A stretch of 46,005 nucleotides of DNA. Source: Candidatus Aminicenantota bacterium (GTDB lineage: Bacteria; Acidobacteriota; Aminicenantia; Aminicenantales; Aminicenantaceae). The stretch covers positions 1-46,005 of the forward strand of contig JAUWTO010000004.1 in the NCBI GenBank assembly GCA_030614685.1, given 5' to 3'. Both the position numbers and the translations under genes were made by a program. Below, one piece after another: positions 12,324-30,698 of the stretch (positions are counted from its first letter, which is position 1; the number at the start of each line of letters is the position of its first letter). Below the pieces are notes generated by a model. That model worked only from the letters and a program-made list of their open reading frames with translations. It ran no database searches and was not told the origin of the DNA.

Positions 12324-12815
12324 ATGAAAACACTCATCGTATACAAAACACGGCACGGATGCACGGATAAATGTGTCCAAAAGCTAAAGCGGCACCTGAA
12401 CGGCGAAGTCGACGTCGTAAACCTCAAGTCAACTGGCTCCCCCGCTTTATCGGATTATGGAACCGTACTGATCGGGGGATCGATCCACGTCGGGCAGGTC
12501 CAGAAAAAGATAAAGGCCTTCTGCCTCGATCACGAAGTAGAGTTGAAGCAGAAGACGCTGGGCCTTTTCCTGTGCTGCATGGAAGAGGGAGAAAAGGCTC
12601 AGAAGCAGTTCGATGCGGCCTTCTCTGAAGGCCTGCGTGTTCATGCTGCCGCACAGGGACTTTTCGGGGGAGAGTTCGACTTTGACCGCATGAATTTTCT
12701 GGAACGCAAGATCGTGAAAAAGGTCGCAGGGATCAAAGCCAGTACTTCCCGGATATCGGAGGAGGCTATCGATCGTTTCGCGACCGACCTTGCTCGGAAC
12801 CTCCCTGAAGGCTAA
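12324..12815 (+). CDS. Flavodoxin-domain protein, HemG-like
   Basis: A 163-residue single-domain flavodoxin. MKTLIVYKTRHGCTDKCVQK matches the first strand plus FMN phosphate-binding loop of the family, which also supports this start. GTVLIGGSIHVGQVQKKIKAF near residue 46 resembles the HemG (menaquinone-linked protoporphyrinogen oxidase) subgroup more than electron-carrier flavodoxins. It could act in haem synthesis or as a general FMN redox protein; no haem gene is nearby, so the specific role is open. It is a single gene with an extended -10 promoter predicting a leaderless transcript, convergent with the elongasome operon. Confidence 0.8.
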   Translation: MKTLIVYKTRHGCTDKCVQKLKRHLNGEVDVVNLKSTGSPALSDYGTVLIGGSIHVGQVQKKIKAFCLDHEVELKQKTLGLFLCCMEEGEKAQKQFDAAFSEGLRVHAAAQGLFGGEFDFDRMNFLERKIVKKVAGIKASTSRISEEAIDRFATDLARNLPEG

Positions 12816-12855
12816 GAAACTGCGAACCAGCCACAACGAAGGAAATGGGATGAAA

Positions 12856-12934
12856 TTGGCTCGCCCGGAGGGTAAGAATTGTCGATTAAGATAAGAATTC
12901 TATTCCTTGTCCATATTAATATCGGCAATTCTTA
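12856..12934. repeat. Dispersed repeat module, copy B, with a long imperfect hairpin
   Basis: TTGGCTCGCCCGGAGGG (12856-12872) is identical to 8196-8212. It is followed by TAAGAATTGTCGATTAA (12873-12889), which pairs with TTAATATCGGCAATTCTTA (12916-12934) with one wobble and a 2-nt bulge. GAATGATCC (12936-12944), shared with the inverted repeat at 8151-8180, comes next. No coding capacity. Confidence 0.65.
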
Positions 12935-12949
12935 TGAATGATCCCGGCG

Positions 12950-13073
12950 CCTGAGCTATTTAGGGGCCGAGATTGGTACAGCGGCGAGGAAGTGGTTCAT
13001 GAGGCGTAGTTATCTACGCCGATTGGACCATAACGAAGTCGATGTGCTGAGATCGGCCCATAAATAGCTCAGG
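12950..13073. repeat. 124-nt branched inverted-repeat element directly after the rodA stop
   Basis: CCTGAGCTATTTA (12950-12962) pairs perfectly with 13061-13073. After one mismatch, GGGCCGA (12964-12970) pairs with TCGGCCC (13053-13059). Inside, GGCGTAG (13003-13009), loop TTAT and CTACGCC (13014-13020) form a perfect apical hairpin, with weaker pairing of TGGTTCA to TGGACCA around it. The outer arm touches the rodA stop codon. There is no poly-U run, so it is not a simple terminator. It could be a small non-autonomous mobile element or a structured RNA. Confidence 0.7.
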
Positions 13074-14165
13074 TCAGATGTTGACGAAGCGGCGCATCTT
13101 TACATTGATAACCAGCGACACGGCCAGATAATTCGTCAATAGCGATGATCCCCCATAGCTGAGCAGCGGCAGGGGGATACCCGCCACAGGGAAGAGCCCG
13201 ACCGTCATCAGGATGTTGATGAATGCCTGGCTTGTGATCAGGAACGCAACCAGGAAGCAGAGATACACTCCCGCCCGGTCACGAGACTTCTCCACAGACT
13301 GAAACAGCCGCAGCAGCAGGAGGAAGTAGGCGCCCAGGACCAGAATAATACCGGTGAAGCCGACTTCTTCCCCGATGACCGAGAACACAAAATCCGTATG
13401 CCTGGCCGGTAAAAACCGCAGCTGACTCTGTGTCCCCTTCTTGAATCCCTTGCCGAATAGGCCCCCCGAGCCCACCGCAATCTTGGACTGCATGATCTGA
13501 TAACCTGATCCCAAGGGGTCTTGATCTGGGTAGAGAAGAGTCGTGATGCGCTGTTTTTGATAGTCTTTCAGCATGAAATTCCAGCCCACGACTCCCAGGA
13601 TGAGGCTCACAGCCAGGATGAGGATGACCATCCTGCGGCCCAGCCCGGCCAAGAGCATTGTAGCGAGGAGAATTGGCATGTAGCTCAGGGCCGTCCCCAG
13701 ATCCGGCTGCATCGTCACCAGGGCGGCCGGGAGCAGGACAATGCCTGCGCTCATCATCCCCTCGACAAACGAGAGGGTGTTGCGTCTGAACTTGGAAAAG
13801 AAGCTTGCCAGAACCAGGATGACGGCGATCTTGGTGATTTCAGAGGGTTGTATCTGGAAGAATGGCAGACGAAACCAACTCTTGGCCCCGGAGACGATGC
13901 TTCCGAAAACCAGAACACCTACCAAAAGAAGCAGACACACTCCATAAAAATAGGGAGAGAGCGCCAGCAGGTGGTGGTAATCGATCGAGAGGAAGAGGAA
14001 CAGGGCTATGAGGCTCACCCCGATCCAGAAAAGCTGCCGCATATGATAGTTTCCCGGAAGATAGTGCGAACTGCTGTAGATAAAGGCCACTCCGATGAGT
14101 GAGTTGAGCAGGAGCAGAAAGACAAGGATCCAGTCGATGTGTCTCAGTAGAGTGCGGTCAATCAT
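13074..14165 (-). CDS. rodA: Peptidoglycan glycosyltransferase RodA (SEDS family)
   Basis: A 363-residue inner-membrane protein with about ten membrane segments, the usual size for RodA. Diagnostic SEDS sequences are present: GAKSWFRLPFFQIQPSEITK near residue 94 (the QPSE motif) and GIPLPLLSYGGSSLLTNYLA near the C-terminus. RodA polymerises lipid II into glycan strands during elongation and pairs with the PBP2 transpeptidase encoded just upstream; its ATG overlaps the mrdA stop by 8 nt. It is the last gene of the mreBCD-mrdA-rodA operon and is followed at once by the branched inverted repeat at 12950-13073. Confidence 0.95.
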   Translation of the reverse strand: MIDRTLLRHIDWILVFLLLLNSLIGVAFIYSSSHYLPGNYHMRQLFWIGVSLIALFLFLSIDYHHLLALSPYFYGVCLLLLVGVLVFGSIVSGAKSWFRLPFFQIQPSEITKIAVILVLASFFSKFRRNTLSFVEGMMSAGIVLLPAALVTMQPDLGTALSYMPILLATMLLAGLGRRMVILILAVSLILGVVGWNFMLKDYQKQRITTLLYPDQDPLGSGYQIMQSKIAVGSGGLFGKGFKKGTQSQLRFLPARHTDFVFSVIGEEVGFTGIILVLGAYFLLLLRLFQSVEKSRDRAGVYLCFLVAFLITSQAFINILMTVGLFPVAGIPLPLLSYGGSSLLTNYLAVSLVINVKMRRFVNI

Positions 14166-30597: not shown

Positions 30598-30655
30598 TGG
30601 CGATGCCGGCCTCGATGCCCGCATCGAATTGTTTTTGACCGGATGATAACTACTC

Positions 30656-30688
30656 AGGGCCCGGCAGCATGCCGGGCCCTGTTTTTTT
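30656..30688 (+). terminator. Rho-independent terminator of the mdh-sucD cluster
   Basis: AGGGCCCGGCA (30656-30666) and TGCCGGGCCCT (30670-30680) form a perfect 11-bp stem with a 3-nt loop, followed by GTTTTTTT (30681-30688). Confidence 0.9.
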
Positions 30689-30698
30689 ATGGGACAGC

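Follow-up and report, generated by a model that had tools for sequence, protein, structure and literature searches.

The locus between the flavodoxin gene and rodA

The palindrome described here lies in a window (the whole stretch of DNA that was analysed, 46,005 bp) from a Candidatus Aminicenantota genome of 2.94 Mb in 397 contigs (83% complete), in the gap between a flavodoxin-domain gene and rodA. Its features are listed below, where P1 is the closing stem of a repeat unit, A, B and C are its hairpins, and R1 is a covariance model built from 12 copies in the same genome, that of the window included.

12324 to 12815, + strand: flavodoxin-domain gene, convergent with rodA (Pfam Flavodoxin_5)
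about 12820 to 12947, + strand: remains of unit 1, comprising the decayed 3' side of hairpin A, hairpin B, hairpin C and the right terminal repeat (read by eye)
12862 to 12872, + strand: hairpin B of unit 1 (CGCCCGGAGGG; by eye against the family consensus)
12873 to 12934, + strand: hairpin C of unit 1, arms TAAGAATTGTCGAT and ATCGGCAATTCTTA with a variable loop between them (by eye)
12935 to 12947, - strand: right terminal repeat of unit 1 (TGAATGATCCCGG on the + strand)
12950 to 13073, + strand: shortened unit 2, P1 and hairpin A only, B and C missing (129 bits to R1, to be read in the light of this copy being one of the 12 behind the model)
12950 to 12962, + strand: left terminal inverted repeat, 5' arm of P1 (fold and inverted-repeat search)
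12964 to 13059, + strand: hairpin A, a long ladder hairpin and the family core (fold and covariation)
13061 to 13073, - strand: right terminal inverted repeat, 3' arm of P1, flush with the rodA stop codon
13074 to 14165, - strand: rodA (Pfam FTSW_RODA_SPOVE), its stop codon adjoining the element

A sequence-only reading had described an inverted repeat abutting the rodA stop codon, and this is real: the last base of the element is 13073 and the stop (TCA on the + strand, the TGA of rodA) begins at 13074. The architecture that it gave was also found in full, with 13 bp of perfect pairing (12950-12962 with 13061-13073), a single mismatch (12963/13060) and, inward of this, 7 perfect pairs, partly paired intermediate arms and a 7-bp apical hairpin. 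What has to be corrected is the isolation of the repeat. The remains of unit 1, a region with a weak R1 match (12748-12887, 23.6 bits, E = 0.001), adjoin the palindrome, so that repeat sequence takes up most of the gap between the flavodoxin gene and rodA. Within positions 12810-12880, the stop context of the flavodoxin gene, GGCTAAGAA, resembles a motif of the unit, GGGTAAGAA; the relative G001 is without the stretch between GGCTAAGAA and GGGTAAGAA, as if it had been deleted between short direct repeats.

The + strand of 12940-13085, taken as RNA, has a fold energy of -81.2 kcal/mol, where shuffled sequence averages -42.4 (z = -9.87, none of 200 shuffles as good). The - strand of the same stretch, which is that of the rodA mRNA, reaches -56.1 kcal/mol (z = -5.96, again with none of 200 shuffles as good). 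The strand that folds better, the + strand, is thus the antisense strand of rodA. The earlier reading had noted that no U tract follows; a search of both strands for terminator-like sites returned none at the element, and the stem plus U tract of a rho-independent terminator is missing. (A separate 21-bp inverted repeat at 30646-30690 of the window, 81% complementary, with a 3-nt spacer and a T run at its end, is probably an ordinary terminator.) A search of the window for tRNA and tmRNA found none. Membership of a known RNA family was rejected, as Rfam 15 gave 0 matches for the window at the gathering score and 0 for a full unit (L089) at E values up to 5.

A dispersed repeat family of the Aminicenantes

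A DNA search of the genome with the window repeat returned 20 matches at E <= 10, chance matches among them, and R1 returned 41 at E <= 0.1, a count that takes in partial copies and a few opposite-strand matches of the same copy. The congener G001 has 86 R1 matches at E <= 0.001. When at most 55 best candidates per genome were scored, 35 of 60 genomes, the source genome included, were positive: 33 of 37 in the same family and 2 of 23 elsewhere in the order. A degenerate 25-base pattern matched at least 116 stretches in named genomes, and the carriers among the 80 titles listed were all Candidatus Aminicenantes or Acidobacteriota metagenome-assembled genomes; viral contigs had 0 exact matches to this pattern, and plasmids had no match to one full unit. 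No description of such a repeat in Aminicenantes was found among the titles and openings of abstracts listed by literature searches. The family is thus new as far as these searches reach, and known in kind from MITEs with folded transcripts, from ERIC and from bcr1.

A RodA match was present in 60 of 60 genomes, and the best 30 loci were compared. At three of these (the source genome G000, G001 and G021) a unit with one and the same orientation abuts the rodA TGA without a gap, and the model matched nothing at the other 27, one of which (L312) ends at the gene. At the locus of G022 (L332) there is an apparent remnant of a right end, and in G020 and some others a radical-SAM gene follows directly after rodA (by eye). 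Among the findings named beforehand as speaking against the element, unrelated sequence at this site in relatives thus holds for 27 of the 30 loci; a lack of covariation and a single copy do not hold.

G001 has the same short form at the same rodA site, and the two copies can be compared pair by pair. Over the 48 pairs of the window fold, 32 are identical in G001, 4 are doubly changed and kept, 4 are changed on one side and kept, and 8 no longer pair (4 of P1, 3 of the stem after it and 1 deeper inside). The G001 copy folds at -44.3 kcal/mol and that of the window at -77.3. Broken pairs and weaker energy indicate that the fold is not strictly kept after insertion; in G001 the inner hairpin is largely kept and the outer stems are decayed, which counts against every copy being maintained whole.

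Anatomy of full units

We collected 130 units in which both ends were found by pattern, with up to 4 mismatches; this requirement keeps shortened forms, such as the window copy, out of the set. A recognisable core was present in 109, from which 87 non-redundant units were drawn. Full units are about 185-290 bp long (187-287 bp for the 87), multi-copy and without a transposase gene, and their borders are common to units of many genomes. A unit begins with the left border CCTGGATTATTCACG, followed by hairpin A (a ladder of about 110 nt), the small hairpin B (consensus GCCCGnAGGGT) on its 3' side, hairpin C, with arms like AAAAAATGCCGACA / TGTCGGCATTTTTT and a loop of variable length, and the right border TGAATAATTCAGG. 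The terminal inverted repeats, CCTGGATTATTCA / TGAATAATTCAGG, when paired, make the closing stem P1, and 94.4% of cells in these 13-bp ends pair across 62 units. The window copy differs from full units in being without hairpins B and C.

Two further observations concern this anatomy. Hairpin A contains two 2x2 internal loops with a GA/GA consensus (columns 22-23/119-120 and 32-33/109-110 of the alignment A4, described below; by eye), and these might hold tandem sheared G-A pairs, spaced by roughly one turn of the helix. At two pairs of orthologous sites, L354 (G001)/L004 (G000), where both flanks are alike (81% and 87% identical), and L359 (G001)/L041 (G000), where the right flank is 90% identical, the flanks are more alike than the units, which looks as though one subfamily had taken the place of another at that position.

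The fold covaries and favours one strand

RNAalifold, given the 12 copies from the source genome, predicted 34 pairs, 21 of them doubly changed. The larger alignment, A4, holds 62 of the 87 non-redundant units; the other 25 were left out by hand to keep the list short, without regard to their pairing. It was made by MAFFT rather than fitted to a structure, and P1 was imposed as a constraint, the unconstrained fold already having 12 of its 13 pairs. Across these 62 full units, standard pairs account for 95.8% of the 3780 cells of a 61-pair structure, and pairing falls to 33-42% when the partners are shifted by 1 to 3 columns. Double compensatory changes occur in 47 of the 61 pairs (25.2 when shuffled) and in 359 cells (93.8 when shuffled), and doubly changed pairs are found in all eight helices, P1 included. 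None of 500 shuffles reached any of the covariation measures; related sequences can beat such shuffles without structure, and the counts of pairs and of pair types, rated safer in this respect, also beat all 500. The compensatory changes that the earlier reading had proposed to look for, by a covariance search in related genomes, are therefore there. At one orthologous site (L091/L146, flanks 84% and 87% identical), two neighbouring P1 pairs have changed on both sides and still pair (by eye).

The pairing also distinguishes the two strands. In the + strand structure G-U outnumbers A-C by 388 to 35, or by 182 to 35 in pairs with a Watson-Crick majority, counts whose cells are not independent events, the copies being related. 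The - strand's own structure (33 pairs) has 76 G-U to 195 A-C overall and 76 to 26 in its 30 Watson-Crick-majority pairs, the 195 A-C cells being mostly in 3 pairs absent from the + structure; in the 29 pairs predicted from both strands, there are 76 G-U and 20 A-C. The consensus energy is -72.5 for the + strand and -20.7 for the - strand, and in each of the 87 units it is the + strand that folds more stably. The G-U excess and this greater stability suggest that selection acts on a single strand, be it RNA or single-stranded DNA.

Mobility and a probable link to IS1380

Target-site duplications are present at the borders of the units. Of 78 units with clean flanks (one malformed row, L144, of length 0, being scored as a non-match), 15 have exact 4-bp direct repeats, as against a mean of 3.5 and a maximum of 10 when right flanks were shuffled (0 of 2000 reaching 15). 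Repeats of 2, 3 or 5 bp are not enriched in the same 78 units, and an exact duplication is absent in 63. The 4-bp repeats are mostly YTAR, and one of the four YTAR words is present in 24 of the 78 left flanks and in 33 of the 78 right flanks.

A candidate mobiliser was found in a relative. Locus L284 of G034 carries an intact gene for an IS1380-family transposase (446 aa, scoring 399 bits with the NCBIfam model) flanked by CCTGAATAATTCATAAA and CCTGATTTATTCATAAA, the same kind of end as the right end of the unit. G021 has two IS1380 fragments at contig ends, 61% and 71% identical in protein, with homologous ends. Ends of both sources differ from the right end of the unit by 1-2 mismatches in 16 bases, and the unit is therefore best read as an IS1380-mobilised, non-autonomous MITE. 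In this reading an IS1380-family transposase, with the repeat at its own ends, would mobilise the units in trans. We infer this mobiliser solely from its ends, on one intact IS in one relative and contig-end fragments in another, and mobilisation in trans is likewise inferential because IS1380 is rare (PF13701 matched 14 of the 60 genomes, and a search with the L284 protein 6 of 94), its transposase was not found in the 83% complete source genome, and the intact IS in L284 lies between TAAA and TTTA, with no 4-bp direct repeat.

Other candidates for the mobiliser were rejected: PF01609-type transposases, none of which was found in the source genome at E <= 1e-5, and IS1182, which in L264 merely abuts one end of a copy. 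This IS1182-family element (about 631-2375 of L264, on contig C105 of G002, inverted ends near 662 and 2375) comes immediately after a unit's right end, inside sequence of its hairpin C; no remainder of the unit was seen on the far side, and insertion into hairpin C is only suggested. A second side observation concerns G021, where the right end of an IS1380 element lies 12 nt past the stop of a 330-aa gene (L272:95-1087 and 1100). The homologue of this gene in the source genome (L037, G000; 76% identical) has a repeat unit flush with its stop, possibly an insertion hot spot common to IS1380 and the repeat.

Docking at stop codons

In 27 of the 130 units an opposing gene has its stop codon exactly at the right end, and in 4 a sense gene has its stop exactly at the left end (binomial p = 3e-5), gene ends here being those of open frames of at least 80 codons rather than annotated genes, and at least one sense case (L081) looking spurious. 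Border offsets of 0-4 are found 33 times on the right and 8 on the left. Genes ending within 60 nt are about equally frequent on the two sides (44 sense, 47 antisense), and the bias is therefore one of exact position, not of number. Remains of another unit occupy the left flank in 47 of 130 units and the right in 5. Where a free flank bears a stop codon, it ends an open frame in 4 of 37 cases on the left and 27 of 67 on the right (Fisher p = 0.0016). The copy in the window, which abuts the rodA TGA directly, agrees with this pattern from outside the 130.

Several explanations of the docking were rejected. Inheritance of copies was rejected because the 27 flush genes are nearly all unrelated (26 groups; 31 genes, 30 clusters). 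Gene truncation was set aside because several flush genes, among the loci compared, end where their homologues end. In hairpin C of full units, A and T tracts pair with each other, and a terminator there was rejected as the cause: 16 of the 27 flush units have A and T runs of at least 5, as do 63 of the 103 others. Further open frames enter the right end in 26 cases and the left in 10, several being alternative frames of flush genes; on the right, 13 stop at base 3 and 6 at base 14. Stops so close inside the right end could favour the docking orientation; they do not explain docking at natural stops. Because YTAR contains TAR, some docking at stops is expected, and the one-sidedness remains beyond that.

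The occupied left flanks (for example L190:5821 and L140:7120) deserve separate mention. In these a piece of a right end, often about 30 nt, adjoins the intact unit across a linker of mostly 1-5 nt, and tandem growth or events like those at a circle junction are possible.

Discussion

The family described here is probably a non-autonomous MITE, probably mobilised by IS1380, with a strand-specific, covarying, four-part fold. For the window palindrome itself, our preferred reading is that it is an internally deleted copy of this DNA transposon of the Aminicenantes, with a fold that serves its own purpose, and we regard this as rather likely. For rodA, the effect of such a copy is probably slight, apart from the stable structure right after the rodA stop codon. 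Two proposals of the sequence-only reading, a small mobile palindrome and a new structured RNA, have thus held up, the first through multiple copies, terminal inverted repeats and target-site duplications, and the second through a fold that covaries across copies, the transcript itself being predicted. Rather than regulate rodA, the fold would serve the element, either through a transcript shielding it from transcription, RNases or translation or in the form of a single strand during mobilisation.

The alternative that survives best, though we think it improbable, is a cis regulator of the ERIC kind, in which the fold acts in the mRNA of a neighbouring gene on stability or termination and copies are kept for a host function. 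Copies do lie near gene ends, with the right end often flush with opposing stops, and orientation-dependent effects on upstream transcripts are reported for ERIC (PMC2229807). A regulator of this kind is difficult to reconcile with the fold energies. Over the 130 units, energy per 100 nt (left arm with hairpins A and B) has medians of -40.5 to -42.3 whether a gene ends in the sense direction, antisense, on both sides or on neither (Kruskal p = 0.75); fold strength is independent of the neighbouring genes, so the constraint seems to be the element's own. The rodA loci without a unit, and hairpin C tracts that are not longer in stop-flush copies, also speak against it.

It is doubtful, and less probable than the cis regulator, that the + fold is a working part of mobility, needed by the IS1380-type DDE transposase and steering insertion, in one orientation, to the translational stop of an opposing gene. 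We think it a little less probable still that the fold is needed as single-stranded DNA, the unit moving as a folded single strand in the manner of integron attC sites or of IS200/IS605 and RAYT systems. The palindromic unit and G-T wobble in DNA, which would also give the strand asymmetry, are consistent with this, but the 4-bp target duplications, together with terminal repeats that pair, suggest DDE transposition of double-stranded DNA. A search of G001, G007 and G009 (at least 50 R1 matches each, 82-91% complete) for Y1_Tnp (PF01797) gave no match at E <= 1e-5, and REP/RAYT was rejected on the same result.

Quasi-palindromes get corrected during replication, and template switching in imperfect palindromes could make compensatory changes as a mutational artefact without selection. 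In keeping with this, the outer arms differ between copies and yet pair well. Template switching, however, predicts equal numbers of G-U and A-C, against the excess of G-U found both in the pairs common to the two strands and in the Watson-Crick-majority pairs of the + strand, and we give it a slight chance, marginally below that of single-stranded DNA. A 3'-UTR structure or small RNA specific to rodA or the mre operon, which the earlier reading had entertained as a small RNA from the elongasome mRNA, is scarcely credible in spite of the same site and orientation in G001 and G021, and a single-copy or rodA-specific RNA was rejected, given the many copies, the 27 of 30 rodA loci without a unit, and a constrained and more stable strand that is antisense to rodA.

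Turning to known systems, bcr1 of the Bacillus cereus group has a conserved RNA fold and a 5-bp target duplication. It too is a repeat with characteristics of a mobile element (PMC3110155), from a phylum other than that of the Aminicenantes, and was compared by description, not by sequence. With MITEs in general the unit shares short, non-coding, intergenic sequence, terminal inverted repeats, target duplications and transcripts predicted to fold, as given in a MITE review (PMC10969869), in whose main text the word 'compensatory' does not occur; it differs in a multi-helix interior that covaries strongly on one strand. ERIC (IRU) and RU-1 of enterobacteria (RU-1 is 127 bp; PMC2759123) are likewise imperfect intergenic palindromes, and orientation matters for the RNA effect reported for ERIC (PMC2229807), but the host phylum and architecture are different, a distinction made by description, not by sequence. 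REP/RAYT elements are palindromic, dispersed and intergenic as well, whereas the Aminicenantes unit has target duplications and no link to a Y1 transposase. Within the IS1380 family, the IS in L284 and the G021 fragments have a terminal repeat matching the right end of the unit, but the unit has no transposase gene, no likeness to the IS1380 interior was seen, and its duplications are of 4 bp rather than the 5 bp of the known member IS1247 (PMC3281130).

In summary, a phylum known largely through metagenomes gains a repeat family that is large, covarying and structured and has no Rfam 15 match, and IS1380 is proposed as its mover. The unusual features of the family are the strength of the single-strand constraint and the one-sided docking at stop codons, the latter a measurable rule of insertion or selection. 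If the fold does steer insertion, the element would be a nearly harmless 'stop-codon docker' working via a structured RNA or a folded single strand. Regardless of the genes on either side, the interior of this transposon is constrained in the form of one particular single strand, and this raises the question of why a transposon would need a folded strand.
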